Shown here in pieces: positions 3,501-40,577 of a stretch of 64,000 bases of DNA (position 1 is its first letter; each line of letters starts with the position of its first letter). Source of the DNA: Polytrichum commune. Lineage: Eukaryota > Streptophyta > Polytrichopsida > Polytrichales > Polytrichaceae. The notes under the pieces are model-generated. The model was given only the letters and a program-made list of their open reading frames with translations. It was not told the DNA's origin and did not search any database. The position numbers and the translations under genes are program-made. Location: positions 27,218,001-27,282,000 of the forward strand of contig OX485804.1 in NCBI GenBank assembly GCA_950295325.1, written 5' to 3'.

Positions 3501-4561
3501 GGTGGCTTGTGACTCTCATACGAGTTTTGACAACTGTCATGACCAAGCATTAGCATTTATATGAGCAGTTATCGGTTAACCTATAGATTGACTGTGTGCT
3601 ACCCTAAAGTTTATTGCTTTGAAATTTGTAGCAATTTTCATGTTCCTAAACAAAACAAAAATTATATTTGCATTCTCCTTAGATTTCTTATTTCTTATCC
3701 TCTTTGCAAGAAAGAAAATTCCATGCTACTACTCCTTCTATACAAATGTAAACTCTCTTATTTTATCAGTTATAGATGCCTCAACTTTAGAGTAGTTTAT
3801 AACTTGTGTTATAAAAAAAAAGTTCTCAATGGTATTATGGAGAAATATATTGTTGAATAGAAGTTGCAAGGTATCATCAAACACTTAGCATAAATAAGGT
3901 GTTTTCATGACAACCACAAATGACACAAACTGGGTTTGAGCCGAAACTTTAACAACGTGAGGCTTGGGGCTTGTGTTGAGAGTTGGGTCGAGCAAAAAGC
4001 TACACCTACCTTGTAACACAAGTCCTAATTTTTATTGCAAAAAATAATCAAGATCTAGCTTTTATGAATATAAACCATACTTTAATCTAGGGGTCAACAC
4101 TCCTCAAAAATTAGAAACAACGTGCGGCAAAAGGTAAGGTTTTATAATTGATGGTATCTAAAGAATTGAAGTTGTTTCAAAATAAAATAGGCCCCACACA
4201 TGAGTTTAAAACAATGTAGGTTCTTATAAACTCCATGACATTTAGTTTACAATATTCTAAGATATCATGGTATAAAGAATTACAAAAGGGTTGTATGCAG
4301 TCTGAGTTTCATCAATCAACTTAGAGATGTCATTGGTTTATGGTTCCGCGATAAATGCAATTCGTATTGTTCTTGAGTGCATATCTATTGTGTGTGTGTG
4401 TGTGTGTGTGTATTTTATACTGTGGCTTTATGATATTTCTTTCAGGCTAAACCGCATTCCAACGAATTATTGGCTCTATGTTTTGAAATGAGCCTAACTT
4501 TGGCCTTAGTCGTTCAACGGACTAGAATTGGCCACGTGTGGAGGATAATCATAGAGGATAG
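587..4561. other. AT-rich intergenic DNA without a supportable gene
   Basis: No ORF here exceeds 100 codons and none resembles a known family. Contents are low-complexity tracts: an A/T-rich run with TATATATA near 2520-2565, and a (TG)n microsatellite at about 4389-4411. A short direct duplication of the phrase ACATTTAGTACATTACATTG lies near 2255-2305. No transposon ends or structured RNA were recognised. Confidence 0.5.
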
Positions 4562-4566
4562 CACTC
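4562..4566. repeat. Target-site duplication CACTC, left copy
   Basis: CACTC sits immediately before the TATGATCCC start of the Ty3 5' LTR. The same five bases follow the end of the 3' LTR at 22865-22869. A matching 5-bp duplication is what Ty3/Gypsy integrases leave. It also fixes the LTR termini. Confidence 0.85.
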
Positions 4567-4902
4567 TATGATCCCAAAATGGTTGCTCATATTTGTTTTA
4601 TGCTTAGAATTTACTTAGAATTGCATTCGGAGTGTTATTGAAACAATTAAAAGTATAAAAAGAGTGAGGCTTGGTGCGGGTTATGTTTTGGGCCTTAAGC
4701 CTATTTTGTGTGATTAATTAGAAGCTTAGTGGCATTAGGAAGAGTTTGGGATGAGTGAGTAGTATTGGTGAGGCAAAGAGAAGTGCCTTGGATTTAAATG
4801 TTTGATTTAGAAAACGTTTGTGTTGATTTAGGGGGTGAGGGTTTAGTGGATAGGATAAGGTCCTACTAAGTAGGAGAAGGTTAAGGGGTTGTGGTCTTGG
4901 GT

Positions 4903-4904
<2 letters not shown>
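4567..4904 (+). repeat. Ty3 5' LTR, left part
   Basis: These 338 bases match 20947-21284 with two differences seen by eye (TATGATCCC versus TATGAGCCC, and GGGATGAG versus GGGGTGAG). A TATA-like AAGTATAAAAAG lies near 4651-4662 and may be the LTR promoter. The LTR is cut at GTGC/TCTCTC by the nested element. Confidence 0.9.
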
Positions 4905-4921
<17 letters not shown>

Positions 4922-4945
<24 letters not shown>

Positions 4946-6041
4946 ATCTTGCTCTTGTTTAAAGCCATATATTTTGTTTAAGCTTGTATTCCTTTACTTT
5001 ATACCTATCATGCACACATAAATAAAAAAGTAGTTACTGTATGGACTAAGTGTTCATAAGTATAGATGAATGATACAAGGTGACTAGGGTTAAGGATGTA
5101 GAACACATCCCTAACACGTGGTAAAATTAGGGTTGTACAGAACTTACCTTGGGTAAGATCTCCAATATAAACCCGTAAACCCTAAAAGAGGCTCTTTTTT
5201 ACCATTCGCACAAGGGCTTGGTGAGGTAACTTGGAGCACACTTGCTGGGATACTAGATACGTGTGCTAAGTGAAGTAGAGGATACTTAGGCTATTCACAA
5301 AGGAGAGCATTCTACTTGTGGTGATACAATCATGGCTAAAGAACAGGTTTGAACACCCATTTGACATTTTGTAATGAGTGTTACTACTAGCAATACTAAT
5401 ATGCATGTAATGTAAGTTTGATGTGTGTGACATGGATAACAACTGGGTCCTGCTGTTATTTACCTCGTGTACGTAACTAATCCTCAATTATTTGTTGGTT
5501 GGTTGCATGGGCACAGGTGAGGCAGGCCCTTCACACTTACAATACTACGAAGTATTGTGAATATGACATTTTATGTATTCCTTTTGGTTGATACTACTAG
5601 GCATATCTCCTGGTATGTTTTCCATATATATAATAGTTAGGGTACATCCTTGTTGGAGCAATGCATGAAGAGAGGTAATTAGATCTACAAAGGTATGATG
5701 GGGTCAGCCACAATTTGTTTTTGAGTACTTAGGAACTATGTATGAGTACTGAAACCCTAAGTATGATACAAATACTTATGAAAGTACAGTATATCGCATT
5801 ATTACATGTTTGTATTGTTTACATACAAATAGACATGGGCGTTTACAAAGAGCATTGAACATACTTAGCCTTAAAACGATATGATGAGAAGGTTTGATTT
5901 GAGGTAATGAGGGTTATGAAAAAGTTCCCACCCACCCACCCACCCTTGCATTGCAATGAAGAAGACATTGAAGGATTAGGCCTCTGAAAAGAGGAAGTTC
6001 AAGCTTTGCAAAAAGCGTTGAAAAGTCAGCTCTCTCTGGAT
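4922..6041 (+). repeat. Left terminal direct repeat (pLTR) of the nested element
   Basis: It begins in a CT microsatellite (left tract about 4904-4942, longer than the right tract at 10129-10149) and ends at CTCTCTCTGGAT. It contains CCACCCACCCACCC near 5928-5945 and a 73-codon minus-strand frame that is identical in both copies and probably meaningless. The ends are not TG...CA. No hammerhead ribozyme core (CTGATGA with GAAA) was found on either strand. Confidence 0.88.
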
Positions 6042-6171
6042 TATCCTTTAGTGGTGTGGAAACCACTACCTAGTCCTTCATATTCTTCTGAAGTTGCTTT
6101 ACATGTTCTGTGGCTGACTAACGTCGCAGAACCATAACAAGGGACCGGCATGGAACAGCGAGCTCGTAGGA
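6042..6171 (+). other. Leader between left pLTR and ORF1
   Basis: These 130 bases follow the repeat. GTGGTGTGGAAACCAC near 6050-6066 can fold into a short hairpin. No tRNA-complementary primer-binding site beginning TGG was recognised directly after the repeat, which argues against a conventional LTR retrotransposon. An out-of-frame ATG at 6150 precedes the ORF1 ATG at 6172. Confidence 0.45.
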
Positions 6172-7704
6172 ATGGGGTACGGCCCACCACTACCGGCACC
6201 CATACCTGCGGTGCAAACCACTATATCTACCATAGATTTACCCGAACTGCACAGATTTGTACAAGACAGTGACAATGCAGCACTTACAAACGGCGAAGAA
6301 GAAGGTGGGCATACACCACTTCTCCTGGATTCACTTGACCTAGCATTGTGGACGTCACTATTTATTACTGCAACCACAGATCCAACCAAAACCTTGGCCA
6401 ACATCAAGTCTGCACAGACTAGACTAGGTGATTTACTGATACAGGATGAAATCGAAGCTACAAAATCAATCGGGTTATGCTCGATGATTGAGGAAACCCT
6501 CAAGCTGGCCAATAAAGATGCGCTGGAAGCAAACTCGTCGCACACGGCAGTGGTAGCAACCAGCGATGGCAACGGAGCTAACAGCACCGTTCACCCATTA
6601 CTGGCAAAACTGAAGATCTCCACCATGGAGATGGCTGCTCTAGAGGATTTCACCGAGGACATCAATTCTTCGCAGGCGGAGAAAGATAAGCAGACCATGG
6701 TCAATACCAGGGGTCCCTTAGTACCCGTCAAACCGCCACGCTGTGTGGAGCTCCTCGTCGCCGACCACCAACATCGAATGTGGGCAATCGGGAACACGAA
6801 CCTGATCGCACCAATTTCGATCGTCATGTGGAAAACCTGGGCTGGCCTCTCGGATTCGGAGATAGAACAATGCAAACAGCAGGCACTTAATAACATTGGC
6901 GTGCTACGTGCTCCAGTGGACTTGCTGCCGGCCTTCTCTCTTAACATGTTCGAGCATTCTAAATGCACGACTACAGAAGTGAAGCTGCACACTAAACAGG
7001 ATCTACCCACGGGCTATAACAGAAAAGAGTCTCACCTAGCGGAGCTCTGGAATGTTCAAAGACCCTATATGAGATGCTTGTGCAATCCTAGGGCGATCAG
7101 TGGGTGCAAAGGATCCATAGTCTGGTTTGACCATGCCATTTGGACAATGGTTAACAAGCTAGACATGTTCTTCCCGAATCAACCAACCAATAACACCAGG
7201 TTCGCTGCTTTCATGCTGTGGCTCAGCAGCGCAGCAAAAATCGCAGTAAAGGTTGCAGTAGTGTTCCACATTGGAAGAGAACACATGGTGACAGCGGCGA
7301 CACAACTCGCTGATAATTCTAACCAGAAACTACTACCTGACCTAAGCGATGCTCCACTGGCTATCAAAATCGAACGACTCCTGAGAGGGCCAAAATTCTC
7401 TCTGCTGCACCCAGGATCACCGAGCCCTGCGCCATCGCCGTTCAAGAAACAGCGACTCAACCTCAATACCTCACCCTCACAGCAGGGTGCACAGGGAGGG
7501 CGCGGTAGATCTCCAAATGGTCGCGGGTTTACTCCCCGAGGTGGGAGGTTTAGGGGTCGCGGCAATGACCGCAGCTTCCATCCGCGTGACAGCTCGCAGG
7601 GGACACCACCCGGCCAAGCCAGGGCAGCAACCACCGAAAATACACAGGGAGCAGGTGGCCAGTCCCCGCTCCGAGGACGTGTTCTATTGTGGGATGGGAT
7701 TTAA
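6172..7704 (+). CDS. ORF1: gag-like protein with RG-rich C-terminus
   Basis: An uninterrupted 510-codon ORF lies between the left terminal repeat and the RT ORF. The N-terminal third is acidic and Ser/Thr-rich, and the middle (about residues 180-400) looks globular. Residues about 415-480 are Pro/Ser then Arg/Gly-rich, with RGG- and GRG-type repeats typical of RNA-binding tails and of nucleocapsid-like regions. No CCHC knuckle is present. By position and composition it is probably the structural, RNA-packaging protein of the element; this is inference. Codon use is more GC-rich than the flanking DNA. It is followed by ORF2 in the +1 frame, separated by stops at 7745-7747 and 7757-7759. A DNA-binding ORF of another transposon type cannot be excluded. 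Confidence 0.72.
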   Translation: MGYGPPLPAPIPAVQTTISTIDLPELHRFVQDSDNAALTNGEEEGGHTPLLLDSLDLALWTSLFITATTDPTKTLANIKSAQTRLGDLLIQDEIEATKSIGLCSMIEETLKLANKDALEANSSHTAVVATSDGNGANSTVHPLLAKLKISTMEMAALEDFTEDINSSQAEKDKQTMVNTRGPLVPVKPPRCVELLVADHQHRMWAIGNTNLIAPISIVMWKTWAGLSDSEIEQCKQQALNNIGVLRAPVDLLPAFSLNMFEHSKCTTTEVKLHTKQDLPTGYNRKESHLAELWNVQRPYMRCLCNPRAISGCKGSIVWFDHAIWTMVNKLDMFFPNQPTNNTRFAAFMLWLSSAAKIAVKVAVVFHIGREHMVTAATQLADNSNQKLLPDLSDAPLAIKIERLLRGPKFSLLHPGSPSPAPSPFKKQRLNLNTSPSQQGAQGGRGRSPNGRGFTPRGGRFRGRGNDRSFHPRDSSQGTPPGQARAATTENTQGAGGQSPLRGRVLLWDGI

Positions 7705-7759
7705 ATGGAATGTGAGCTTACTTAAGCAAGTTTTACACTACTCTTAGGATGCATCCTAA

Positions 7760-9937
7760 CAGCTAGTTGGCTATAATTTTGAACTCACAGAGACAGGTCA
7801 CACATTACGACATAATGCACTTGGACGCCGTTATGTGTCACGTGACAAGAATACGGATCGAACTGGGATAGTACACGTAAACTACTGCAGTAGGGCATTA
7901 GAGTGGGTGAATATAAAACAATTATTCTCAGAGGTGTTCACTCAGTTGTCAATACCACATATTGTACCTTTTTTGCTTAACATTATGTTCGCTTGGAATT
8001 TTCTGCCTAATGTCTCCAAAGTTTGTTATAGACCTGCTTTAGTATTCAAAGATTTCAATGTGGGTGCACACATGACGGGCTCATACGAATGTATATGTAA
8101 CAGTTCTAAGAGACTGATACAGTTTCTAGACCCAGATACCATAGATGATACCAATGGTGATCCAAGGATGCATGTACGCACCATGGATACAACCATAATA
8201 CATCACCATGGATTAAGAGAAGCAGTGACCTTAGGATTGAATCACATACCTTTACGAAATACTAATATACGTGAGACTGTCCAAGTGGTAATGGATACGT
8301 TTGAACAGGTTTGCCGACTTTTGAAAGTAGACGAACTTATTGACGTGGACATGGCATCTAAAATCGTTCGAGCAAGGTCAAGAGACAAACTGTTATCAGC
8401 CATAAAAGAAAATCTTTTTGGCTTCAGGTATTCAAAACCATACCTCTTCTCTGAAAAGGCAGTGGAAAATGAATTGTCTTGGCTCATGAAGCATGTATTC
8501 ATATCGGGACTAGATAAAGCAACTAGTAATGCTTGTTTCATATGCATTACTCACATAAGAAATCAAGCCTTGATAAGACTCAACAGTCCTGATTTTGAAC
8601 CATGCCAACATGACAATGCATGGGACTCTGTAGAGGATGTCACAAACAAGGTAAAGATGGAATTGAAATCCCTCTTACCCGAACTACCCATACATGAGGA
8701 AGAACTTCCTTATATAATGGCGATATACAAAGTCCACAAAATGAAATATAGGTGGATCTCCAATGCATTTGGGACCCTATATGTAAATATTGCCACACTC
8801 CTTACCATATCAACTATGGCACTACTTGATGAGGTAAAGGAATGGGCTACTCTCACGGTCAAAGGGTATAGTAATTTCCTTGGTATTGACACGTCAATAT
8901 ATTGGATTATAGACTCAATTACAGATTTTACCTTAAACATTCCTGAAAGTATCAACAACATATATGTTGCTGATATAACAAGATGTTTCGAGTCTATTCC
9001 AATTTCGGGCAAAGATACATTATATGACGCTATGGAGTTTATCACTCAAATTGGTATATCCAATATGAAACGAAAACATCCTAAATCTGAACACCTCCTC
9101 TGGGTTAGGATTAACGACAAAGGAGTTACCACTAAAGCACTATGGGCATCTAAATGCCCTAAGTATGGGGAATGGTTCCCAATACCAATCCCTAAATTCC
9201 TACAAATTCACAAATGGTTGACAACTAACTGTTATGTACGATTGGGAGACCAGGTATGGAAACAGGTACTCGGTATACCCATGGGTTTTTCATGTTCGCC
9301 TCTTTGGTGTAACTTATATCTCATGTCATATGAGATTAAGTTTATACAGAGGTTAGCTAGACTTGGACAAACAACAATCCTAGCTAAATTTAAGTACGCA
9401 TTTCGATATATCGATGACTTGTGTTGGATTAACGTGGGTGAGGCTAATATGTTCCTCGATCCTACACAACCAAGACACAGAGATAATCCATTATGGATCT
9501 ACCCATTGGATATTATTGAAATCAAGACTGAAGTGTCTCAGTTTTCATTAAACCATCCACAGTCTGGCATCAAAGCACATTTTATGAATGTGTTAATCAC
9601 TGTTACAGACGAGGACGCTGGTCTATTCATCATGCAGAAGTACGATAAACGATGTGAGTTACCATTCAGTTACTCTCAGTTTATAAAATTCAAGTCGAAC
9701 AGACCGGTTAAACAGGCTTACAATGTGGTTATTTCCCAAACTGTACCCATACTATACCTATCAAGCAACCAGGACGTAGCTTTGCAGGAGATAAGAGCTC
9801 TGTTCACAGTGCTATCTGCTAATGGGTTCCGCAGTACCAAACTACAACAAATAGTGATTAAGTTCCTGACTAACAACCACTTTCCTGCGTTGCGATTTAA
9901 TAAAGACCATCTTCTGCAACTGCTGCAAGGTATGTAA
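7760..9937 (+). CDS. ORF2: Penelope-like-type reverse transcriptase, catalytic residues intact
   Basis: The frame is open for 725 codons from 7760 to the TAA at 9935-9937. There is a GTG at 7835 and the first ATG is only at 7985. Residue numbers below count from the GTG. RT motif A carries Asp about 380 (VADITRCFESIP), motif B is GIPMG at about 480, and motif C is YIDD at 525-528, so all three catalytic aspartates are present. The surrounding blocks, including WIIDS before motif A, the YPLD segment after motif C and the YDKR segment downstream, match my recollection of Penelope-like or related non-LTR RTs found across eukaryotes. The protein ends soon after the thumb-like region, with no nuclease or RNase H. 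It would copy the element's RNA, probably primed from a DNA end at the target. An unusual start, stop readthrough or splicing must join it to ORF1 or initiate it. The exact RT clade is uncertain. Confidence 0.8.
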   Translation, partial: QLVGYNFELTETGHTLRHNALGRRYVSRDKNTDRTGIVHVNYCSRALEWVNIKQLFSEVFTQLSIPHIVPFLLNIMFAWNFLPNVSKVCYRPALVFKDFNVGAHMTGSYECICNSSKRLIQFLDPDTIDDTNGDPRMHVRTMDTTIIHHHGLREAVTLGLNHIPLRNTNIRETVQVVMDTFEQVCRLLKVDELIDVDMASKIVRARSRDKLLSAIKENLFGFRYSKPYLFSEKAVENELSWLMKHVFISGLDKATSNACFICITHIRNQALIRLNSPDFEPCQHDNAWDSVEDVTNKVKMELKSLLPELPIHEEELPYIMAIYKVHKMKYRWISNAFGTLYVNIATLLTISTMALLDEVKEWATLTVKGYSNFLGIDTSIYWIIDSITDFTLNIPESINNIYVADITRCFESIPISGKDTLYDAMEFITQIGISNMKRKHPKSEHLLWVRINDKGVTTKALWASKCPKYGEWFPIPIPKFLQIHKWLTTNCYVRLGDQVWKQVLGIPMGFSCSPLWCNLYLMSYEIKFIQRLARLGQTTILAKFKYAFRYIDDLCWINVGEANMFLDPTQPRHRDNPLWIYPLDIIEIKTEVSQFSLNHPQSGIKAHFMNVLITVTDEDAGLFIMQKYDKRCELPFSYSQFIKFKSNRPVKQAYNVVISQTVPILYLSSNQDVALQEIRALFTVLSANGFRSTKLQQIVIKFLTNNHFPALRFNKDHLLQLLQGM

Positions 9938-10128
9938 CTCTTACTACTATTTACAGTATTGCATAAAGGGAGTATATGTAATTGGATACCAATGAATGAT
10001 GTATACAAATCGCATGAGAGTGACAGAGAGAAAAATAAACAGGGTGACTGGTATGCTTACCGTGAGTGGATGCATAACCAGCATCCACTCCTATACACTT
10101 ATGACCTACCAGGGGTTTGGTGGAGGGA
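9938..10128 (+). other. Spacer between ORF2 and right pLTR
   Basis: It is 191 bp long and noncoding in the ORF2 frame. The last codons of ORF2 contain AAGGTATGT, a good 5' splice-site match. A purine-rich stretch, GGTGGAGGGA, directly abuts the right repeat at 10119-10128. It resembles a polypurine tract, but its role is unproven. Confidence 0.4.
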
Positions 10129-11248
10129 CTCTCTCTCTCTCTCTCTCTCCCTATCTTGCTCTTGTTTAAAGCCATATATTTTGTTTAAGCTTGTATTCCT
10201 TTACTTTATACCTATCATGCACACATAAATAAAAAAGTAGTTACTGTATGGACTAAGTGTTCATAAGTATAGATGAATGATACAAGGTGACTAGGGTTAA
10301 GGATGTAGAACACATCCCTAACACGTGGTAAAATTAGGGTTGTACAGAACTTACCTTGGGTAAGATCTCCAATATAAACCCGTAAACCCTAAAAGAGGCT
10401 CTTTTTTACCATTCGCACAAGGGCTTGGTGAGGTAACTTGGAGCACACTTGCTGGGATACTAGATACGTGTGCTAAGTGAAGTAGAGGATACTTAGGCTA
10501 TTCACAAAGGAGAGCATTCTACTTGTGGTGATACAATCATGGCTAAAGAACAGGTTTGAACACCCATTTGACATTTTGTAATGAGTGTTACTACTAGCAA
10601 TACTAATATGCATGTAATGTAAGTTTGATGTGTGTGACATGGATAACAACTGGGTCCTGCTGTTATTTACCTCGTGTACGTAACTAATCCTCAATTATTT
10701 GTTGGTTGGTTGCATGGGCACAGGTGAGGCAGGCCCTTCACACTTACAATACTACGAAGTATTGTGAATATGACATTTTATGTATTCCTTTTGGTTGATA
10801 CTACTAGGCATATCTCCTGGTATGTTTTCCATATATATAATAGTTAGGGTACATCCTTGTTGGAGCAATGCATGAAGAGAGGTAATTAGATCTACAAAGG
10901 TATGATGGGGTCAGCCACAATTTGTTTTTGAGTACTTAGGAACTATGTATGAGTACTGAAACCCTAAGTATGATACAAATACTTATGAAAGTACAGTATA
11001 TCGCATTATTACATGTTTGTATTGTTTACATACAAATAGACATGGGCGTTTACAAAGAGCATTGAACATACTTAGCCTTAAAACGATATGATGAGAAGGT
11101 TTGATTTGAGGTAATGAGGGTTATGAAAAAGTTCCCACCCACCCACCCACCCTTGCATTGCAATGAAGAAGACATTGAAGGATTAGGCCTCTGAAAAGAG
11201 GAAGTTCAAGCTTTGCAAAAAGCGTTGAAAAGTCAGCTCTCTCTGGAT
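10129..11248 (+). repeat. Right terminal direct repeat (pLTR) of the nested element
   Basis: This is the same 1,120 bp as 4922-6041 at constant offset 5207, with no substitution or indel found by eye. It begins CTCTCTCTCT and ends CTCTCTGGAT. Its right edge is not a target-site junction: the element continues into the tail. Confidence 0.88.
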
Positions 11249-13175
11249 CTATGGGCGCCCCCAATAAATCCCTGTGGGCTGCCCGAAAAAGAAACGAAAT
11301 ATAAGTATAAAAAGAGGAGCCGGAAGGCAGGAAATCATCTGACAGGCTTTCCTCGATCTTAGTGTAAGAGTATTACTGCAGAGGCTTCGAGCCTGAGTTC
11401 CCCTTATGAGTAGGCTTCGGCGTACAAGTAAGATACTGCCTGTCTGTGTGATGCTACCACAAGTCTCTCAACAGGAGAGTTCGGTTCCATAGAAGTGTCC
11501 GAAGCCTGAGTGATTTCAGTCTGTGACTCTGTGTAAATATTCACCTGTATACTGTCAGTCAAGATCCCAGTGCATCTCTACAATGACCAAGTCTAGCTCA
11601 TCGCAAGACGAATTCAAGGTGTAGCCACAGAACATTCTCTGAAAATTCACAAGACTACACTTCTTGGTCACATGGGATAATCAGCCATCTAACCATATTC
11701 TTGATTCAAGATTTTATGTTCATATATCTTTTCAATATATGCAACTATTTGTATTGAATATGGTGAATGATACCTACTTCCTAGGAGGTGAAATAGCCTT
11801 GTTGACATCGATAACAAGTAAGAAGGTTCGCTTACACCTGATGTACGCTCTACTAACTTATTTCTTGGTAATGTTGGGGAGCATGGGCACAGGTGAGGAC
11901 CTCTTCTACAAGTGCAATACGCCTTCCGAAGATCCGTCCACTCTAGTCAATTCTTAAAAGACTTCATAATCTTGGAATTGACTTTGAGTACTTCCTATTT
12001 TTACACCATACTTTCTTTACATACTACATTCTCTATTCAAACTTCAGCTTATGCTCTATTCGAAGCAGTTGAATAGGTAATAAAGACATCAAGAATACAA
12101 TTATATAATCTGTCATACCACTATATATGGTAAACAGAATAAAGACAGTTATTCTTGATGTACTCTACAATAACGAAATAGAGTTTCAGAATTCTATGTT
12201 CAAATCATGCATACTGTGCTTAGATATACTCTCTTGAAATAATATGGTTCTGTTTGGCCTGAATTGTAGAATTTATGAGAACCCAATATGCAGATATACA
12301 TACATTTATGTATACAGGATCAGGCGGCAAGGGATAAATAAAAGAAGTATTGATAAAGGAGATATACATAGACTGCTTGACAGTCTGTGTTTGGTTCTAT
12401 CCATGCTGTCATGTGCAGTTGGAAAGAAATACCTGATATAAACAGGATATACTATCATTCTTAACAGAACGAATGATTTGGAATCAGACTAACAGCCTGT
12501 GAAATCAAGAAAACTATCGAAATTTGAGGATTTCTTATTTAAGCTAAATAAGTTATTTACCTGCTCAATAAAGTACTGTTTACAACCATGTAATAGGATT
12601 AGTAGTGTTGACTACTAAGTACATACTGATGCCTATATCAAAAGATGTGTATGAAAATAAGTTCGAAGCTCGTTGAATTTCGACTAATGTACACTCCCTG
12701 AAAACTCCTGAAAACTACTGAAAGCCAAGATATATATATACTGTGATATATACAGTTATAACCTGAAGTAAGATGGGCTGTTCTAACTTATGAAGATAGA
12801 CAGCTTCATAAGTTATTTGACTAACCAGATCAGCAGAGGGAGTAGACATCTGAGTAAAACAGCAAACAGGGAAAACTGCTATAACTGATTTTGAATGAAC
12901 AAGTATAAGTTTACATGATATCAAGTCTTATTTTCTGAAAATATTATGTATACTTATCTATAGTAGTACATAAAATTCATACAAGGTGATACTCTCCTTC
13001 TGTTACAAGACTGTTATTAGAGAAGGTTGAGTTTGGAATAATAAGTAAAATGCTTGGTTATCAGGACCCTAACAAGGGATGTATGTTGTCATAACATAAC
13101 ATAACTTGACCTGTATAGTGATGACCTATCCTAACAGGACAAGACAATAATCAAGACAAGATTAGTCAGCTCTCT
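11249..13175 (+). repeat. Asymmetric tail of the nested element, including a diverged pLTR segment
   Basis: About 1.9 kb lies between the right repeat and the point where the Ty3 LTR resumes. The stretch near 11800-11930 is related to pLTR positions about 5425-5550. It shares GACAT-GATAACAA, a run ending TGTACG, the identical 18-mer GCATGGGCACAGGTGAGG (11881-11898) and a following AATAC...GAAG block. The tail ends with AGTCAGCTCTCT (13164-13175), also found near the end of both pLTRs. It therefore looks like part of a related, diverged terminal repeat, as expected from a head-to-tail tandem. A 97-codon ORF (11664-11957) overlaps it and is unconvincing. Confidence 0.55.
11306..11314 (+). promoter_or_regulatory. 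TATA box in the tail of the nested element
   Basis: TATAAAAAG follows a GC-rich stretch and is followed by a GC-balanced region with a small hairpin (AGGCTTCGAGCCT, 11382-11394). It is a good plant TATA match pointing rightward, out of the element. In a tandem array it would drive the next unit. Activity is inferred only from the motif. Confidence 0.4.
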
Positions 13176-13786
13176 TCTCAAGGAGGTTGAGCTCTTAGAG
13201 CGGGGAAGAAGGTACATTAGGGGAAGACTTATTAGGATTAGTGGAATTAGGTAGGTGCATTAGGGTAACACTTATTAGGATTAGTGGAATTAGGTAGGTG
13301 CATTAGGGGAAGACTTATTAGACTTAGTGGACTTAGGAAGGGAACTGTTGGTTGCTGGAGTTGGACTGCTGGGCCGAAGCCTGGTTGCTGGAGTTGGACT
13401 GCTGGGTTATGAGAAGAGACTAAGGTTATTTATTATGGAGGCTATTTAATTAAAACAAGGGGGGGGGGGAGATTTAATTAAGAGCTCAACTCATTAGGGA
13501 ATTAGCGGGGTTAGATTCATGTAAATTAGATGGTGGCATAAGGGAATAAACTTTAGTAGGGATTGAAGTGTGGGGTTGTGAATTAGTGTAGGAGAAAGGG
13601 AAGAAATAGAGAAGAGCATTTTTCAATGCTTGTACTCGTGGTATGAAATAAATTGGTGTGCAAGAGTTGATGGGAAACGAAATGGATTTGTACGGAGTTG
13701 ATAAGATGGAGTTATGGAAACATGAATGTGATACCCATTCCCTCACCCGGACTAGGACGCTTAAGGGTGGGTGGTTCGGCCTCATA
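13176..13786 (+). repeat. Ty3 5' LTR, right part
   Basis: It resumes at TTCTCAAGG and ends at GGCCTCATA. It matches 21360-22864 except for seven or so changes and the minisatellite, which here has only two units (about 13345-13410). A poly-G run lies near 13461-13471. The end CTCATA mirrors the LTR start TATGA(G). Confidence 0.88.
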
Positions 13787-13790
13787 TAAA

Positions 13791-13809
13791 TGGTGCGTCC
13801 GCCGGGAGT
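13791..13809 (+). promoter_or_regulatory. Ty3 primer-binding site, tRNA-Gly-like
   Basis: TGGTGCGTCCGCCGGGAGT lies four bases after the LTR end. From memory of plant tRNA-Gly (UCC) it is complementary to the tRNA 3' end with one mismatch. A TGG start and this spacing are standard for LTR-element minus-strand priming. Confidence 0.7.
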
Positions 13810-14719
13810 GAAGCGGGATTAGGAAAGACTTGGAGGCGATTAGGGAAGACTTGGAGGCGACATCGTACGAGAAGGGAATGAGCGAGTGGCTCATGGTAAG
13901 TGTCTTACTTATACTATTGATTTTTGCTATTTACTAGTTTATTTCATTTTCTTTGTTTCCTTGGAATGAATTGCATATTTCCTTTATGCCTTTTGTTTTG
14001 AGGAGGGAGCGCGGCGAAGGTATGTCCTCAACATTTTTGGGGATTTGCTAAAAACATAAAAAGAACCTTATGATCGATTAGTTCATTAAAACATTAGAGG
14101 GATAATTAATCTTAGGAAGAGTAGACTTTGATACTCACCTCGGGGTGAGTCTCCAAGTCTTGGGGATTTGACATTTCATTTAGATTAGATTATTAGTTTA
14201 GCAATTTTGTTGTTATTATCACATTGAGTCACGGTCGAGGGGAGTGCTAATTTGCAGGGGGATGCGAATGCTTAAGGTACGATAACTTCTTCAAAGTGAA
14301 TTGTTAATTAATTAAAAAATGATTTTAGTACTTGTTTGTGTCGTTATCCATTGTAGAGGGTAATTCCCTAGTCATAGCATGGTATTGGAGACAAGAGGAT
14401 GATGCCTCAGTCTTTGATGCAGTGCATAACGACGATCAGCCCCTCACTCTCGGTATTGTGGTGAGTGTCAATGGGAGGGAAGGTTTTAGAGATGATACTC
14501 TAGCCCGACCGAAAATTAACATAAGCATGCTTATCCCTTGTTTGGGATTGTTCATCTAAGTGGGCTTGCAGGTTCTCTTCCTCACCACCTCAATTTTTAA
14601 TTCACACCAAGAAAAATGATAATATTAATGAGTGAAGGTAGTGAGGAGTATGATTGGTCAAGTGAGGGTTGATCAATTCTTTGGAGAATGCAAGGTAAGA
14701 CTCGATCTCAAAACCAAGC
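13810..14719 (+). other. Ty3 untranslated leader
   Basis: About 900 bp separate the primer site from the first gag-like frame. It holds no convincing gene; a 75-codon frame at 14332-14559 has no recognisable features. Long leaders of this kind usually contain packaging and dimerisation signals, but none can be pinpointed here. Confidence 0.5.
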
Positions 14720-16672
14720 TTGACATTAGGATTAGAAAGATCTAGATGTAGGAGGAGATTATCTAGGATTAGTGATGTTGTGGAAGAAGTTGATGGTAGA
14801 TTAGAAAGTTGTTTGAATGTTGAACCTAATTTTAGTCCATTACTAGAGACATTAGAAGGGGAGATTAAAGTGGAGGAAGATGTAACTCCCTCTAAATTGA
14901 GTGGTGAGATATGATTGGATACTTATACATCTAGAGAAGAGATTCTGATACACATTGATAGGAACATAAGAAAAGATCCACCGGTTGACATGGCACGGCG
15001 AGGGGATGACGATGATCCCATATTGGATGAGGACCCCATTGATCTATTGGTTAGACCGAGAGGTTTACTAATTATGGTTCCACAAAACTTACATGCGGTG
15101 GATATGTCCTCCCACCTCCCTAAGTTTTATGGAACCAAGGATGAGGATCCTTCTAGGCACATGGAGAGGTACATTGAGAGGTTGGCTAGTTCTTTGGTGA
15201 CCAATCCGGGGTATTGGTTGGTATGATTTCCCACTACTTTGGAGGGTGAGGCTTACGAGTGGTATAGAGATCATGCCGAGGGACATTTTAGAGCATGGGA
15301 GCAATTGCAAAGGGAGTTTTTGAATGAGTTTCGACCGGAGGTTGATCAAAGCACGGCTTTGAAGGCATTGGCTTCGTTTAAGCAATGTAAGGAAGAGGAG
15401 ATTTCGGCGTACATTAGGAGGTTTGATTTAGTGTGTACACGGTTTGTGGGAACCATGCTAAGTGATGATACACTAAAGCAATTTTTCATTCAAGGATTTT
15501 TTAAATCGGGAATAATTAGGGTGTTCTTGAAAGACACCCTCAAACGTTGGCGGATGCCAAGCGGGCGGCTAGAGAGATGGAGACCTTGGATAGTGATCAT
15601 GAGAGATTGTGGAGAAGTGAAGATGAATTGATACCACAATTCATTCCCATTCAACTTAGGTTGATGGCGGGGGAGCCAGTCAAGTATGAGAGTCAAGTCC
15701 CTTATGCCATTGTTGACACCGGTCCACGTCCTTTAGCGGTTAGAGAACCGGCACCACTTCTAGCATTACCGGCCCCTAGAGCGGATCCTCACATTGACGA
15801 AGTGGAGAGAAAGTTGGGTGCTAGCCAATTGGGATTTCAAGAGGCCATGATCAAGCAAATGCAAACTTAAGTCTTACGAATCAAATGTCTTTGATGATCA
15901 AGAGCCAACAACCAGGTCCTCCTCCTCCGGTCGAGTCGGATAGACATTCATCGGGGTTGTGGTGTGTTCAATGTGGCCAACCGGGCCATACTCGTCAGTT
16001 TTGTAGGAGTGGACAAAACCGTGATCAAAGAGGAAACGGTGGTCCACCCCCACAAAACCAACGAGATCAAGAACAACCTCAATATGGACAAGGCAACAAT
16101 AGGGGACCTCCTCCTAGAGGTCAAGGTGGTCAAAACGTGAAAAAGAGGGAGTTCCATTTATTTTGTGGGAGGTGGCATGCACAAGGTCAATGTTGGTCCG
16201 AGGGACAAGGTCATAGTTGTAGTAATTGTGAAAGAAACCATCCTTTGGACGAATGTCGTCAACCGGTAAGGTTATTAGTGCGACTTACTCGGTGGCCAAT
16301 TCACAACAACAAGCGAGGGACAACATGAGGGGAGCTGAACCTCAAGGTGGAACACCGAATGAGCTTAGGCCACCGAATTTGTATTACGACCATGGTAATG
16401 CGAGACAAACTTCTCACCCACCGGCGGGATTGCATACGGCGAATGGTTACATTCCGATTCAAGGTAGGCAAGGAGGTCCACAAAACTTCGACAATCGGCG
16501 TCAACCTCCTCCTACGGATCCATGTCCGTCTAATTCTCAAGATGTAAAGTTTATGGATGATGTAGTGGAGTCACATCATGATGACACTCTTCCTCTCCAA
16601 ATGGATAGTGGAGAGGGACAAGGTCAATGGCCTCTACACACCAATGCCATCACCTATGAGTTGAAAGTCTAG
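14720..16672 (+). pseudogene. gag: Broken Ty3 gag (capsid and zinc-knuckle nucleocapsid)
   Basis: The capsid-like part lies in one frame at 14720-15631, interrupted by in-frame TGA stops at 14912-14914 and 15224-15226. It contains a retrotransposon-gag block (W-x-x-L, then EFL near 15280-15330, ARF-like RRF later). The frame shifts near 15545, again after the TAA at 15868-15870, and again near 16250. A nucleocapsid CCHC knuckle with spacing C-x2-C-x4-H-x4-C is at 15963-16004. A second Cys/His cluster ends near 16260. A Gln/Pro/Gly-rich linker follows to 16672. At least five lesions mean no functional Gag can be made from this copy. Confidence 0.85.
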
Positions 16673-16776
16673 GGGATGAAGTTACTCATGAGGTATCGGC
16701 ATTAGCGGTTACCACTAGAGCTAGAAGAGGGAAGGCCCCATTAGAGGTAGAAGTAGAATGTCAAGAGGAGTATTTT

Positions 16777-17550
16777 TTGGATGAAGCTCCTAACCTTTCC
16801 GAATTGGATAGAGTAGCTAAAGTAGCTAGAAGGGCCACTAGGGACTTGGAGGAGGAGAATGTGATTCTTCATGATAGGGAGAGGCCTAATGTCATTCATG
16901 ATTTGGACAGTAGTGAGATGGGAGAATGGGAAGAACCCGGGATTCCTTTGGATGAATTTGATGGTGTTGACAAGGCCAAAGTGGAGAAGTCAAGTGGCTA
17001 CGATTTATGGGCCGATCTTAGCTCACTTAAGGCCGATATTACCTTTGGACAATTGTTGGAGATTTCACCCGTGGCTAGGAAGACTCTCAAAGAGAGAATG
17101 CCGGTGACTATGAGGACTAGGAAGGTTAAGCCTAGGATGACGACTATAGTTCAAACGAACGGAGGAAGACGCGATGTCAAGCCAATTGAAATTGAGGTTA
17201 TGGTGGTGGACAAGGTGGTTCCTAATGTGCTAGTGGATGGAGGTAGTGGTTTGAACATCTTACCGGAGCACACCATGAAGAAGTTGGGTCGTAGTCTTAC
17301 GGATCCGTCACCTTACAACATCAATATGGCGAATCAAAGTCCGGCCGTGCCTTTGGGAATGATTAAGGATTGTAGAATTAGCACCGGAGGGGAAAAATAT
17401 GTGATCACCTTTCATGTCATCAAAATGCATTCTAACAAGGATACATTTCCTATATTGTTAGGTAGGCCTTGGTTGAGAATGGCGGATACCATAGTAGATT
17501 GGGACCGAAGGAGCCAAGCCATCTATTACTTATGGCCAGGAGGACAATAG
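16777..17550 (+). CDS. pro: Ty3 aspartic protease segment
   Basis: This 257-codon open segment lies between gag and RT. The retropepsin active site reads VLVDGGSG near 17229-17250; DGGS replaces the textbook DTGS, as in many plant Ty3 elements. The second hallmark, ILLGRPWLR, lies near 17455-17480. The first 90 or so residues are an acidic linker. The frame ends at TAG 17548-17550, and the following frame differs, so it is cut off from RT. It is a piece of a polyprotein and not a separate gene. The catalytic region itself looks undamaged. Confidence 0.82.
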   Translation: MDEAPNLSELDRVAKVARRATRDLEEENVILHDRERPNVIHDLDSSEMGEWEEPGIPLDEFDGVDKAKVEKSSGYDLWADLSSLKADITFGQLLEISPVARKTLKERMPVTMRTRKVKPRMTTIVQTNGGRRDVKPIEIEVMVVDKVVPNVLVDGGSGLNILPEHTMKKLGRSLTDPSPYNINMANQSPAVPLGMIKDCRISTGGEKYVITFHVIKMHSNKDTFPILLGRPWLRMADTIVDWDRRSQAIYYLWPGGQ

Positions 17551-18127
17551 GGTCAAAGTTCCTATAGGGTCGCTAGGTGGTTGGATTAGACAAGAGATTG
17601 TTTCATCTTCGGAAGAGGAACGTGATGCCAATGAGGATGGCAAGAATGATGAGGCATTGGTAGGAGTAGTTCATTCGGGTAGTGTAGATCATAGTTTCTA
17701 TAATTATGGGGATGATGGGGAGTATGCCCAATGGTTGAGAGATTATCCGGAATCTGAATTCGATATCATGACGACGTCCCACTATACATGCTTGAGCCAC
17801 GACATTCTTGATTCACGGAGTGAAGAACATTCCTTGTTAGAATCATGTGAGGTGCTCATCGAGGAAGAATGGATTTTAGGGGGATTGACACCATGGGTTG
17901 ATAATATGGAAGATAGTGACGTAAGTTTAATACATGTAGATGAGACTCAAGATGATGATGCTATCATAGAGATGGAGAAGTTGGAGGAGCCTTCACACTT
18001 CAAGACTACATCAATGGGAATTGTTGTTGGGCAAGATATCAAAGATTAACCTAACGTACCGGCGGATTGGTATAGGAACAAAGACGAGCAAGTTCATGTC
18101 ACCGAAGGAGATTGGAAATATGTAGAT
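17551..18127 (+). pseudogene. Acidic protease-RT linker of Ty3 pol
   Basis: A different frame opens here (17657-18049, 130 codons), very rich in Asp, Glu and Ser. Acidic linkers between protease and RT occur in plant Ty3 polyproteins. The frame change from the protease and the stop at 18047-18049 separate it from RT. Confidence 0.55.
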
Positions 18128-20888
18128 GTGACGATAAAGAATGGCAAGGTGAGGCAAATGAAAATGAGATCTCAATTGGGCGAGGAAGAGATCAAGGAAT
18201 ATAGAGATTTGGTGCATGAATTTAGTGACACTTTTGCATGGTCATATAATGAGCTCAAGGGTATCCATAGAGAAATGGTGGAGCATCGCATTCTTTTGAT
18301 TCCGGGTGCTAGGCCCATTAGGCGAAATGAGAGAAGGATGAACCCACGACTATAATTGTTGGTTAAAGCGGAGTTAGAGAGATTGTTGAATGCCGGGTTT
18401 ATTAAGTCCGTCGAGATTACGGATTGGATCTCTCCGATAGTATTGGTGAAGAAAAAGAATGGGAAGTTGAGGGTGTGTGTGGATTTTATGAAGCTAAATG
18501 CTTGTACACAAAAGGATCATTTTCCTTTACTATTCATCACTCTCCTTTTACAAGAGGAGGGCATGCTTGCTACACATTTATGGATGGTTATGCGGGATAA
18601 AATCAAATCACCATAGCATTACAAATGCCCACAAAACAACTTTTACTACTCCATGAGACACATTTGTTTGGGTGGTCATGCCATTTGGGTTGTATAACGC
18701 TCTGGCCACGTTTCAAAGGCTTGTCATGTACATCTTCACCGACTTGTTGTACAAATCCATGACCGTGTTCATCGACAATTTTAGTACTCAATCAAATGTT
18801 AGTCAACATATAGGGTGTGTGCGAGAGGCTTTGATTAGGTGTAGAAAGATGCAATTGGCCTTGAACCCGGATAAAACCTTCTTGGCCGTTCACAAGGGAG
18901 TTTTTTTGGGTTATGTGGTGAGTGAGAAGGGGAGAGAACCGGATCCCGACAAAATCACGGTTATTGATGAGTTGCGCACTCCCACCAATGCGAAGGGTAT
19001 AGCCAAGTTGTTAGGACATGTGGGGTGGTATAGGGAATTGATTCCTAATTTCTCTAAGATAGCGGTTCCTATTACCCATTTGCTCAAGAATGATGTTAGA
19101 TTTGAATGGACCGAGGCTTGCCAAAAGACGTTTGAAGAGTTAAGGGATAAGTTGAGCACTTATCCGTTATTGAGGCCACCCGATTGGGATAAGCTTTTCT
19201 ATATGTATTGTGATGCTAGCAATGTAGCGGTTGGTAGTGCTTTATGTCAATCCGCGGGTGAAAACGGTAATGACCATCCTGTTGCCTATGCTAGTAAGCA
19301 ATTGACACCGGCCGAGAGGAATTATTCTACTACGGAGAGGGAGTGCTTGGCTATGGTATTTTCGGTTAAGAAGTTTCGTCATTACCTTGTGTGTAATCCG
19401 GTTGTTTTCTTTGTGGATCACATGGCCATAAAATACTTGGTCAATAAGGCGGAGCTAAGCGGGAGATTAGCTAGATGGGTCTTGTTATTAGAGGAGTTTG
19501 ACTACACGGTGGAGTATAAACCGGGCCGCATGCACTTACAAGCCGACCACTTGTCTAGATTGTCCGAGGAGATGGGAGAAAGTCCAATAGATGATAGGTT
19601 GGTGGATGACAATCTTTTTGTGGTTACGGCCAAACCAGATTGGTATGCGGGTATCGTGGAGTTCTTAATCACACAAAAGTTGCCCGAAGATTGGACCACG
19701 GAGGAGAGACGAAAAGTTAGAATTAATAGTAGGCATTTTACGGTGATAGGGCATAGATTGTTTAGGAGGGGAACCGATGGGTTGTTTAGGAGGTGTGTGT
19801 CGGAGGTAGAGGTCCCGACCATCCTAGAGGCTTGTCATGATAGTGCATGTGGGGGACATTTTTCCGGCCAACTTACCGGTCCAAAGATTCTTAGAGCGGG
19901 ATACTTTTGGCCTACCTTGTTTAAGGACTCATATGATTATGTAAAACGTTGTAACGCTTGTCAAAGGTATGCTCGGAATGATTTACGGATGGAAATGCCA
20001 CTCCATATTTCTTTGCTTCTTGTGCCTTTCGAGAAGTGGAGGATTGACTATGTAGGCGAGGTCCATCCCCAATCCTCAAAGGGAATGGCTTACATTATAG
20101 TTGCCACCGAGTACCTTACCAAGTGGGCGGAGGCTAAGGCGGTCAAAACCGATACGGCGGCGCATGCGGCGGCATTTATGTATAAAAACATCATCTCAAG
20201 GTTTGGAGTGCCCAAAATTTTGGTGAGCGATAGAGGTATTCATTTCCTAAATTCCTTGATTCAAGAAATGACGGACAAGTTTCAAATTGACCATAGGAAG
20301 ACCACACCTTATCACCCCCAAACAAATGGTCAAACGGAGAGGGTAAATGATATTTTGGTAAGCATCCTACGCAAAACGGTAATGGACTCTAAGAGGGATT
20401 GGGATACGAAGTTGACGGCGGCATTGTGGGCTTATCGGACAACTTACAAAGTAACTACCCAAGCTACTCCCTTCTCTTTGGTGTATGGTTTGGAAGGCAC
20501 CCTTCCCATTGAATATGAAGTAGAATCTCTTCGGATGGCTATAGGCTCACGCCTTACCGAGAGTCAATCGTTGAAAAATAGATTGACCGACTTATAGGAG
20601 CTTGATGAGAGAAGGCGAATGGTGGCTCAACACATCGAGGCGATTCAACGTCGAAGGAAAGTCACCTTCGACAAACGTCACAAGAAAAGGGCATTACGAC
20701 CGGGAATGATGGTGATGATTCAAGATGGTAGGAAACTTGAATTCCCCGGTAAGTTTGATGCGGTTTGGATGGGTCCTTACCTTATACACGAAGTATTTCC
20801 CAACAATTCTATGCAATTGGAAACATTGAACGGGGAGAGCTTCCCAACTCGAACCGCGGGGAGTAGGTGCAAGGAGTATCGTGTTTGA
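18128..20888 (+). pseudogene. pol: Broken Ty3 pol: RT, RNase H and integrase
   Basis: RT begins in one frame (18128-18616), with an in-frame TAA at 18353-18355. It then shifts to the frame of 18672-20597 after garbled sequence near 18600-18670. The polymerase motif normally ending in two aspartates reads F-I-D-N; the Asn codon is at 18777-18779, so the catalytic pair is lost. RNase H follows, with CDAS near 19209, TERE near 19337 and VDH near 19413. Integrase has an H-H-C-C zinc region (about 19836-19965) and the D, D, E residues near 20046, 20230 and 20335. A TAG at 20595-20597 splits off the C-terminal part. That part ends in a GPY-type module (W-M-G-P-Y near 20770) and has no chromodomain. 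Domain order is Ty3/Gypsy. Confidence 0.9.
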
Positions 20889-20946
20889 AGACAACTTGCC
20901 TTCGAAGCAAGAGATTCGGGATCCATCCCCCGATGGTCGCCAATTA
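20889..20946 (+). other. Pol to 3' LTR junction, no clear polypurine tract
   Basis: These 58 bases should hold the polypurine tract. The only purine-leaning stretch is GAAGCAAGAGA, about 35 bases from the LTR. No typical run of ten or more purines abuts TATGAGCCC. The tract may be degenerate. Confidence 0.5.
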
Positions 20947-22864
20947 TATGAGCCCAAAATGGTTGCTCATATTTGTTTTATGCTTAGAATTTACTTAGAA
21001 TTGCATTCGGAGTGTTATTGAAACAATTAAAAGTATAAAAAGAGTGAGGCTTGGTGCGGGTTATGTTTTGGGCCTTAAGCCTATTTTGTGTGATTAATTA
21101 GAAGCTTAGTGGCATTAGGAAGAGTTTGGGGTGAGTGAGTAGTATTGGTGAGGCAAAGAGAAGTGCCTTGGATTTAAATGTTTGATTTAGAAAACGTTTG
21201 TGTTGATTTAGGGGGTGAGGGTTTAGTGGATAGGATAAGGTCCTACTAAGTAGGAGAAGGTTAAGGGGTTGTGGTCTTGGGTGCCCTCCCCTCCTCCTCC
21301 TCTCCTCTCTTCTTTCTTCTTCCTTCTTCTCCTCACCTCTCTTTCTTTCTTTCTTTCTTTCTTCTCAAGAAGGTTGAGCTCTTAGAGCGGGGAAGAAGGT
21401 ACATTAGGGGAAGACTTATTAGGATTAGTGGAATTAGGTAGGTGCATTAGGGTAACACTTATTAGGATTAATGGAATTAGGTAGGTGCATTAGGGGAAGA
21501 CTTATTAGACTTAGTGGACTTAGGAAGGGAACTGTTGGTTGCTGGAGTTGGACTGCTGGGCCGAAGCCTGGTGTTGAAGTTGGACTGCTGGCCGAAGCAT
21601 GGTTGCTGGAGTTGGACTGCTAGGCCAAAGCCTGGTGGCTGGGAGTTGGACTGTTGGGCCGAAGCCTGGTGGCTGGGAGTTGGACTGTTGGGCCGAAGCC
21701 TGGTGGCTGGGAGTTGGACTGTTGGGCCGAAGCCTGGTTGCTGGAGTTGGACTGCTGGGCCGAAGCTTGGTGCTGAAGTTGGACTGCTGGCCGAAGCCTG
21801 GTTGTTGGAGTTGGACTGCTGGCCGAAGCCTGGTGTTGAAGTTGGACTGTTGGGCCGAAGCCTGGTGTTGAAGTTGGACTGCTGGCCGAAGCATGGTGTT
21901 GAAGTTGGACTGCTGGCCGAAGCATGGTTGCTGGAGTTGGAATGCTGGGCCGAAGCCTGGTGGCTGGGAGTTGGACTGTTGGGCCGAAGCCTGGTGGCTG
22001 GGAGTTGGACTGTTGGGCCGAAGCCTGGTGGCTGGAGTTGGACTGTTGGGCCGAAGCCTGGTGCTGAAGTTGGACTGTTGGGTCGAAGCCTGGTGCTGAA
22101 GTTGGACTGTTGGGCCGAAGCCTGGTTGCTGGAGTTGGATTGTTGGGCCGAAGCCTGGTGGCTGGGAATTGGACTGTTGGGCCGAAGCCTGGTGGCTGGA
22201 GTTGGACTGTTGGGCCGAAGTCTGGTTGCTGGAGTTGGACTGCTGGGCCGAAGCCTGGTGGCTGGGAGTTGGACTGCTGGTCCGAAACCTGGTGGCTGGG
22301 AGTTGGACTGCTGGGCCGAAGCCTGGTGGCTGGGAGTTGGACTGCTGGTCCGAAACCTGGTGGCTGGGAGTTGGACTGCTGGGCCGAAGCCTGGTTGTTG
22401 GAGTTGGACTGTTGGGCCGAAGCCTGGTGGTTGGGAGTTGGACTGCTGGGCCGAAGCCTGGTTGCTGGAGTTGGACTGCTGGGTTATGAGAAGAGACTAA
22501 GGTTATTTATTATGGAGGCTATTTAATTAAAACAAGGGGGGGGGGGAAGATTTAATTAAGAGCTCAACTCATTAGGGAATTAGCGGGGTTAGATTCATGT
22601 AAATTAGATGGTGGCATAAGGGAATAAGCTTTAGTAGGGATTGAAGTGTGGGGTTGTGAATTAGTGGAGGAGAAAAGGAAGAAATAGAGAAGAGCATTTT
22701 TCAATGCTTGTACTCGTGGTATGAAATAAATTGGTGTGCAAGAGTTGATGGGAAACGAAATGGATTTGTACGGAGTTGATAAGATGGAGTTATGGAAACA
22801 TGAATGTGATACCCATTCCCTCACCCGGACTAGGACGCTTAAGGGTGGGTGGTTCGGCCTCACA
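20947..22864 (+). repeat. Ty3 3' LTR
   Basis: It spans 1,918 bp from TATGAGCCC to GGCCTCACA and is followed by the target duplication CACTC. Its left 338 bp equal the 5' LTR with two differences. Then comes a C/T-rich tract (21283-21367, including CTTT repeats) that is the uninterrupted counterpart of the nested insertion site. A 29-unit minisatellite follows, then a final ~380 bp shared with the 5' LTR. It is twice the length of the 5' LTR (949 bp without the insertion), almost entirely because of the minisatellite. Confidence 0.92.
21531..22482. repeat. 31-34-bp LTR minisatellite, about 29 units
   Basis: The core is GGAGTTGGACTGCTGGGCCG followed by AAGCCTGGT. Counting GTTGGA-type cores gives 29 units. 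Variants are 31 bp (GTGTTGAAG type), 33 bp (GTTGCTGGAG type) and 34 bp (GTGGCTGGGAG type). Runs of the same variant suggest block duplications. Because the unit lacks stops, all three forward frames stay open for hundreds of bases; these frames are repeat artefacts and not genes. Confidence 0.95.
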
Positions 22865-22869
22865 CACTC
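22865..22869. repeat. Target-site duplication CACTC, right copy
   Basis: It matches 4562-4566 and directly follows the 3' LTR end CTCACA. Confidence 0.85.
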
Positions 22870-39033: not shown

Positions 39034-40577
39034 TGTGAGGCCAAACCCGCCACCCTTAAGCGTCCTAGTCCGGGTGATGGTTTTGAGAATCACATGTCTT
39101 GTAATGACAATTAAAGAAACACAAAATCCAACTTGGGTCTTCCGCCCAAGTAATTTATTAATTCCCCTCTACTAGTCACATGCGTACTTCTTCTTACTCA
39201 CTCTTGTGAGTGCAAGTGAAAGTAATTATCTCACTACCCTTACTCCAACCTTTTTTTATGGTTTTCATTCACTTGGTGATTCTCTTGAGTTTCCCACATC
39301 ACTTGAGGCAACAACACCTCGCTAATGCTGGCATCATGTGCGAGCACACCTTTAGCCGAATCAAGTCTCCACGTCATGGTTTCAGCCATGCCTACCCTTG
39401 CCGACATTCCTCTTAAGATTCTAACTGTGGAAGAACTTGGCCTTGTAGAATCCATGAGGTGATGACCAACCTAGCAACTTGGTGCCAACTCCACGTCGAT
39501 GTCGACTCCCCGCTTGACGTCAACTTCACCCTTAATATCAACTCCACGCTTAACGCCACCTTGGTGACAACCTCAAAGCCACTGCACTAATCCCAGCTAT
39601 CAACTAAACCCCTTCGCTAGTTTAATCCAACCCCCCTAATATCACAGCTGTGGATACACCCAACTCTCTACTATCACAGCTGTGGATACACCCAACTCTC
39701 TACTATCACAGCTGTAGATACACCCAACTTCCTAATATGACAGCTGTGGATACATCCAACTCCCTAATATGACAGCTGTGGATACACCCAACTCTCTACT
39801 ATCACAGCTGTGGATACACCCAACTCTCTACTATCACAGCTGTGGATACACCCAACTCCCTAATATCACAGTTGTGAATACACCCAGCTCTCTACTATCA
39901 CAGCTGTGGATACATCCAACTGCTGTGGGTACACCCAACTCCCTAATATCACAGCTGTGGATACACCCAGCTCTTTACTATCACAGCTCTCTATTCTCTA
40001 CTATAACACAACGAGCTAAGCTCTAAATGCCTCAAATCAAAGACTACTCCTAATAAATGTCAACTAACTTCAAGGCTAATTAGTCTTGGTTCTTCACCTT
40101 GAGACCTTGCACACACACGTGCTCCTTTCTTGCTTCACACACACCCACACTCATAATACGTGGGGTGCCAATGAGCACAAAGGAAAAAAAGAAAGGGAGA
40201 GGAGAGAGTGAGGATTATATAGTGAGGTGAAAGGGAGTAGGTGAGCACCCCCAAGGCTCAAGATAAATCTTTTGATTTTTTTCTACTTTATAGGCTTTCA
40301 TCCTATCATTTAAGCCTTCAACTCTTAAACCAATAACATAGATCCTAATTCAAACATTTAACTCAAGGAGCCACCCTTGGTTCATCACACATTATGCTCA
40401 CCTAACTAAGGAACTTTCTTCACACCGCTAAACTTCTAATCAACCTAAGGTCTAAACATAACTTCATTCAAACCTCACTTTTTTTATATTTTTGTGAATA
40501 ATCATAAAACATCAAAACATAACTTCTAATAGTTGAAAAGGATTAAGAACACATGTGGGCACCATTTTAGGCTCACA
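39034..40577 (-). mobile_element. Solo LTR related to the Ty3 element
   Basis: Read on the minus strand it begins TGTGAGCCTAAAATGGT and ends AAGGGTGGCGGGTTTGGCCTCACA-like, matching the Ty3 LTR start TATGAGCCCAAAATGGT and end GGCCTCACA. Other shared blocks include ACCCGGACTAGGACGCTTAA, a TATAAAAAAAGTGAGG promoter-like block and the pyrimidine tract. The 1,544-bp unit is flanked by the 5-bp duplication GTCTT and has no internal region or second LTR, so it is a solo LTR left by LTR-LTR recombination. It is clearly diverged from the 4.5-kb element and has a different minisatellite. Confidence 0.85.
39640..39990. repeat. 29-30-bp minisatellite inside the solo LTR, about 11 units
   Basis: The unit is CTATCACAGCTGTGGATACA followed by CCCAACTCT. 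Some units carry CTAATATGACAG or CCTAATATCACAG variants. It occupies the same relative place (after the pyrimidine tract) as the unrelated minisatellite in the Ty3 LTR. Confidence 0.9.

Follow-up and report, generated by a model that had tools for sequence, protein, structure and literature searches.

Penelope-like elements (PLEs) typically carry direct terminal repeats (pLTRs) and have a tandem structure (PMC11167929, PMC3846280). Canonical Penelope and Poseidon elements combine these features with a telomerase-like reverse transcriptase (RT), a GIY-YIG endonuclease and, in one studied case, a hammerhead ribozyme (PMC11167929, PMC3846280), and intron retention in PLEs has been discussed (PMC3846280). 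Endonuclease-less PLEs (EN− PLEs) form chains at the telomeres of bdelloid rotifers as Athena elements and terminons (PMC12477314), and, according to one proposal, telomerase descended from EN− PLE-like elements (PMC7658794). In plants, where PLEs are described as patchy, EN− PLEs are listed for Selaginella moellendorffii, Pinus taeda and Picea abies (PMC9033089). Among the listed papers of the openly licensed literature, none concerned PLEs of mosses by its title or abstract opening. Here we describe an insert at ∼4904–13169 on the forward strand of a 64,000-nucleotide stretch of the moss Polytrichum commune (GCA_950295325.1, contig OX485804.1, positions 27,218,001–27,282,000; hereafter the window). 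A Ty3/gypsy long terminal repeat (LTR) hosts the insert in its polypyrimidine tract, and the flanks of the insert were matched to an insert-free copy. It is best read as a young copy of an EN− PLE with two proteins, a reading to which we assign a probability of about 0.83.

The insert consists of a 6.3 kb unit, in the order repeat, open reading frame 1 (ORF1), RT, repeat, which ends at ∼11248 and is followed by a related 1.9 kb segment, termed T. A sequence-only reading had treated the DNA up to 13175 as one element. This extent fits the whole insert, but the last 1.9 kb are something other than the unit. That reading had also missed segment T (11253–13169), the location in a gypsy LTR whose empty site is present in the window, the polypyrimidine nature of the target, and that the repeat probably harbors an exon and an intron.

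Reverse Transcriptase

The RT frame is open over 7760–9937, and the RT exon is placed at 7791–9937 on the forward strand, with 173 homologues. The catalytic aspartates noted from the sequence were confirmed: all 28 rows of one alignment (A1) share the motif A Asp and YIDD, and a larger alignment of 76 rows has the motif A Asp in 75 and both YIDD aspartates in all 76. The predicted structure of the RT (pLDDT 91.6) gave TERT as its top matches (VIA rows 1–15), in alignments that span the parts resembling the telomerase-type RNA-binding domain (TRBD), the RT and the thumb at 10%–14% sequence identity. In the long rows, TERT aligned with more residues of the model than R2, L1 or group II RTs. Several TERT alignments extend to the last residue of the model (714), so that no C-terminal domain is left over. 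Unlike TERT, this RT is encoded by a mobile element that also has repeats and ORF1. RT relatives were absent from viral-contig and genome-contig collections, and a PDB sequence search with P0001 and profile A1 returned weak, unrelated matches only.

Domain-library scans covered the 15 insert frames of at least 75 aa, read from stop to stop except for ORF1, which was scanned starting at its ATG. None of these frames yielded a nuclease, integrase, protease or RNase H family, as the sequence-only reading had stated. The same library detected RNase H and integrase in the neighboring gypsy element, and a protease there below threshold. Pfam gave no GIY-YIG endonuclease match for the 15 frames or for any of the 28 A1 RTs, and a tyrosine recombinase, a feature of DIRS elements, had no match in the 15 frames. 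The direct repeats of LTR length, the two ORFs and weak matches of the RT to Pfam RVT_1 and to the NCBIfam group II RT (E 0.0022, far under the cut-off, as was Drt2 at 0.039) might be expected of an LTR, DIRS or LINE element in disguise. That explanation is very improbable, given 15 frames free of protease, RNase H, integrase, recombinase and endonuclease and a best structural match to TERT over R2, L1 and group II RTs.

A sub-threshold Cas1 match (E 0.035) in a 102-aa antisense frame was put down to chance.

Terminal Repeats and Insertion Site

The left and right direct repeats, R1 (4922–6041) and R2 (10129–11248), both on the forward strand, are identical (100%) over 1,120 bp, exactly as first read from the sequence. 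A (CT)19 run at 4904–4941 overlaps the start of R1 and a (CT)10 run at 10129–10148 lies by R2; its presence at both repeats indicates that the CT run is part of the element. The ends of the element are CT-rich, with CTCTCT near the 3′ end of both the repeat (R) and T. Identity of this kind could also arise as an assembly artefact, which is scarcely credible here, as the flanks of the two copies differ on the left, (CT)19 versus (CT)10, and on the right, the ORF1 region versus T, and such repeats are the norm for PLEs (PMC11167929).

The sequences flanking the insert (4567–4905 and 13170–13784) recur without it at 20947–22862, as found by comparison within the window. Frames between the two copies match Pfam gag (E 2.3e-13), an aspartyl protease below threshold (3.8e-4) and, in one shared frame, RT, RNase H and integrase. 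The flank copies are therefore the two LTRs of one Ty3/gypsy element, and the second of them (LTR2, 20946–22865, forward strand, its ends read by eye) represents the empty site. With the pyrimidine tract, a minisatellite and gaps excluded, 886 sites were compared between LTR1 and LTR2, of which 8 differ; no substitution separates R1 from R2 over 1,120 bp, which agrees with a recent insertion. Judged by sequence, the PLE insertion is more recent than that of the gypsy element; together with the identical repeats, this supports the young age proposed earlier.

The empty site in LTR2 is a polypyrimidine tract (21284–21366) containing a single A. The insert begins at one edge of the tract and ends at the other, which means that the tract of LTR1 was lost or was originally shorter. 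Three pure pyrimidine runs of at least 25 nt occur in the 64 kb, one at the start of the insert and two in the LTR2 tract; a single pure purine run of at least this length lies at 40179. A target-site duplication of the insert cannot be discerned within such C/T sequence.

R contains five telomere-like TTAGGG/CCCTAA hexamers, located within 5109–5760 (R1) and 10316–10967 (R2). Five were reached in 0 of 500 dinucleotide shuffles, and elsewhere in the window the mean is 0.76 per 1,120 bp. These hexamers, and the association of EN− PLEs with telomeres in Selaginella and bdelloids (PMC12477314), would suit a telomere-type EN− PLE resembling Athena or Coprina, for which chromosome ends are the normal target and which would have left the present interstitial copy through a stray repair event. 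We consider this unlikely, since the hexamers lie in both orientations with only one full CCCTAAA, and the copy sits not at a telomere but at a polypyrimidine tract within a gypsy LTR, with CTCTCT common to the 3′ portions of R and T. The hexamers could reflect a telomeric past or a promoter role, for example as telo-box promoter elements. Athena elements and terminons are very complex, whereas the element in the window is one unit and one segment.

The host Ty3/gypsy element (4566–22865) has coding sequence broken over several frames. Its LTR ends, read by eye, seem to be TATGA...TCATA (TCACA in LTR2), and CACTC is a likely target duplication. A 34-bp minisatellite is present in ∼29 copies in LTR2 (21536–22483) and ∼2 in LTR1 (13349–13406), a difference that we attribute to expansion or contraction after insertion.

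ORF1 and Predicted Gene Structure

ORF1 spans 6172–7704 from its ATG. The 510 codons counted in the sequence-only reading are correct for this interval, but coding similarity extends upstream of the ATG to a block starting at 6130, which implies that they are probably not the full protein. The ORF1 exon with its stop is placed at 6130–7704 on the forward strand, and the conserved, RGG-tailed protein is predicted to have 529 aa including exon 1. Its 71 homologues divide into 22 that extend upstream of the block, 33 that start inside it and 16 that lack it. The residue preceding the block is Q in all 22 informative relatives, consistent with a CAG splice acceptor, and the window carries CGTCGCAG at the 6130 acceptor. 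An intron before ORF1 is thus a well-supported prediction. A predicted first coding exon, MAKEQ, lies in R1 at 5332–5346 on the forward strand (ATGGCTAAAGAACAG, followed by a donor GT at 5347), in phase with the 6130 acceptor, and the joined exons read MAKEQ-NHNKGPAW... The annotated Ceratodon protein P0191 starts with MATSHQ ahead of the same block. ORF1 probably begins in this small exon within the repeat. PLEs can keep introns in their genomic copies.

The similarity of the RT begins at ∼7791, after CTCACAG. At this start residue, 18 of 30 relatives are consistent with an AG acceptor of the same phase, among them all 12 members of the near clade, compared with 1–12 of 22–33 at neighboring residues. 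Splicing to an acceptor at 7791 is likely, with two candidate donors. The RT may start from a mini-exon in the repeat, ATGGGCACAG (phase 1), or from the ORF1 leader through a candidate alternative donor at 6304–6305 on the forward strand (GAAG before GT), giving an RT mRNA with the N terminus of ORF1. The latter arrangement resembles P0038, which fuses an ORF1-like N terminus to the RT N terminus at the expected place. Both fit the phase, and several ATGs lie upstream of the mini-exon, so that either start exon may be the one in use.

ORF1 matched 0 Pfam families and the window protein had no NCBIfam match; its relatives were absent from viral-contig and plasmid collections. The protein is conserved and has an RGG-rich tail, and the earlier label "gag-like" is not borne out by any known domain or fold found. 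Eight Pfam families appeared at E up to 1 among 45 relatives, each in 1–3 members, and were regarded as chance. The only organism named among the ORF1 and RT homologues is the moss Ceratodon purpureus. Five longest-contig sizes (5396, 5491, 4402, 4393 and 4316) are common to the two homologue lists (120 RT rows and 71 ORF1 rows). Linkage of the two genes by these shared sizes is suggestive at most, because ∼1.5 would be expected by chance from the local density and the 5491 pair falls under different sources. The correlation between RT and ORF1 identities is 0.68 over these five presumed pairs plus the window (15 non-independent comparisons).

Proposed Assignment to the Penelope-like Elements

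The element shows direct terminal repeats, an RT that is nearest to telomerase among RTs, and a complete RT without an endonuclease domain. The TERT-like RT structure and the pLTRs support the Penelope-like type proposed from the sequence. Canonical Penelope and Poseidon elements are alike in their pLTRs, tandem structure and telomerase-like RT; their GIY-YIG endonuclease, and the hammerhead ribozyme of the one studied, were not found here.

Several observations weigh against assignment to the EN− PLEs or against parts of the predicted gene structure. The class is the best reading from structure and anatomy rather than from an RT tree containing named PLEs, and the element is known here from a single copy in the window. 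Pfam RVT_1 scored the RT below threshold, at 21 bits against a cut-off of 29.6, and the lower TERT rows are tied with R2, the gap in Z being under 1. No Rfam hammerhead ribozyme matched 4500–13500 at E up to 1, and the hammerhead core pattern was absent on either strand of the sequence searched. The predicted ORF1 model found nothing usable in PDB, BFVD or VIA; the model is poor (pLDDT 60.3), and so the missing fold match tells little. Some presumed ORF1 and RT pairs disagree in identity (RT 0.745, ORF1 0.606). The RT acceptor fits only 6 of 18 relatives beyond the near clade, where the site is either not fixed or poorly aligned. No further ORF1–RT fusion was present among 81 candidates, leaving P0038 as the single instance of leader sharing.

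Sub-threshold Rfam matches to mir-1244 were rejected.

The earlier suggestion of an undescribed system was too strong, since plant EN− PLEs have been listed (PMC9033089). The element resembles these in being a PLE without endonuclease in a land plant; compared by description only, its conserved ORF1, long identical pLTRs and interstitial C/T-tract target may or may not set it apart. Within the reach of the searches made, the new features are an ORF1 that is conserved, a probable start exon located in the pLTR, a polypyrimidine tract as target, and the stacking with a second family.

Segment T

Segment T (11253–13169, forward strand) has no copy in the repeat–ORFs–repeat unit. A stretch of R (∼5424–5552) aligns with T (∼11800–11931) over ∼130 bp, with a score of 75 compared with a maximum of 56 in 200 shuffles done within 60-nt windows. 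Within it, an 18-nt block, GCATGGGCACAGGTGAGG (5505–5522, forward strand), has an exact match in T and resembles an ATG plus a 5′ splice-site-like sequence; it may have a role in splicing. A conserved hairpin at the R/T block was unsupported, as shuffled sequences folded about as well at the RNA level (z 0.11 and 0.61). AGTCAGCTCTCT stands at the end of T on the LTR junction and, in R, 6 nt before the identical part ends. T also carries an ATG stretch with a GT donor (11583–11618) upstream of the R/T block, in the same order as in R. Because the block, AGTCAGCTCTCT and the ATG-donor order are common to both, T is probably a solo pLTR from a second family, related to that of the main unit, with which it is stacked. 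Alternatively, 11253–13169 could belong to the same element, either as a long integral tail or as host DNA that it captured, much as Pen1 of Adineta vaga has a 0.9–1.5 kb spacer of captured host DNA before its 3′ pLTR (PMC3846280). This explanation, with no second element, is possible but rather doubtful in view of the sequence and order that T shares with R.

Proposed Mechanism

The CT-rich ends, the C/T-tract target and the loss of tract sequence suggest microhomology priming from a pre-existing purine-strand 3′ end, a model drawn from one copy. Transcription would begin in the left repeat, where a short ATG exon would be spliced to ORF1, and the RT would be made by alternative splicing to the 7791 acceptor. 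ORF1 might coat the element RNA through its RGG tail. The RT, a putative telomerase relative with a TRBD-like part and no capacity to cut DNA, would extend an existing purine-strand 3′ end of a C/T-rich tract, at a break or stalled fork, after pairing of the primer end with CUCUCU near the 3′ end of the RNA. Repeated use of the same end could give stacked elements, here the unit and segment T. More broadly, and as a tentative proposal that may well be wrong, the element could represent a plant telomerase-related lineage that has exchanged chromosome ends for internal polypurine–polypyrimidine tracts, with an RT that has kept a telomerase-type RNA-binding domain and primes on exposed purine-strand ends at these fragile tracts, a dedicated RNA-coating ORF1, and both proteins expressed from start exons in the repeat by alternative splicing. 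With an intact moss family whose RT has a TRBD-like N terminus, laboratory experiments could test how mobile elements and telomerase are connected. If the element does prefer polypyrimidine tracts, this would suggest how a nuclease-free RT obtains a primer away from telomeres.

Other Repeats in the Window

Three further tandem repeats lie in the window: an array of a 190-bp unit at 50866–52172 (6.7 copies, 89% matches), a degenerate array of a 148-bp unit at 57452–58278 (5.6 copies, 69% matches), and a 32-bp repeat at 39635–39988 with a higher-order period of 96 bp.
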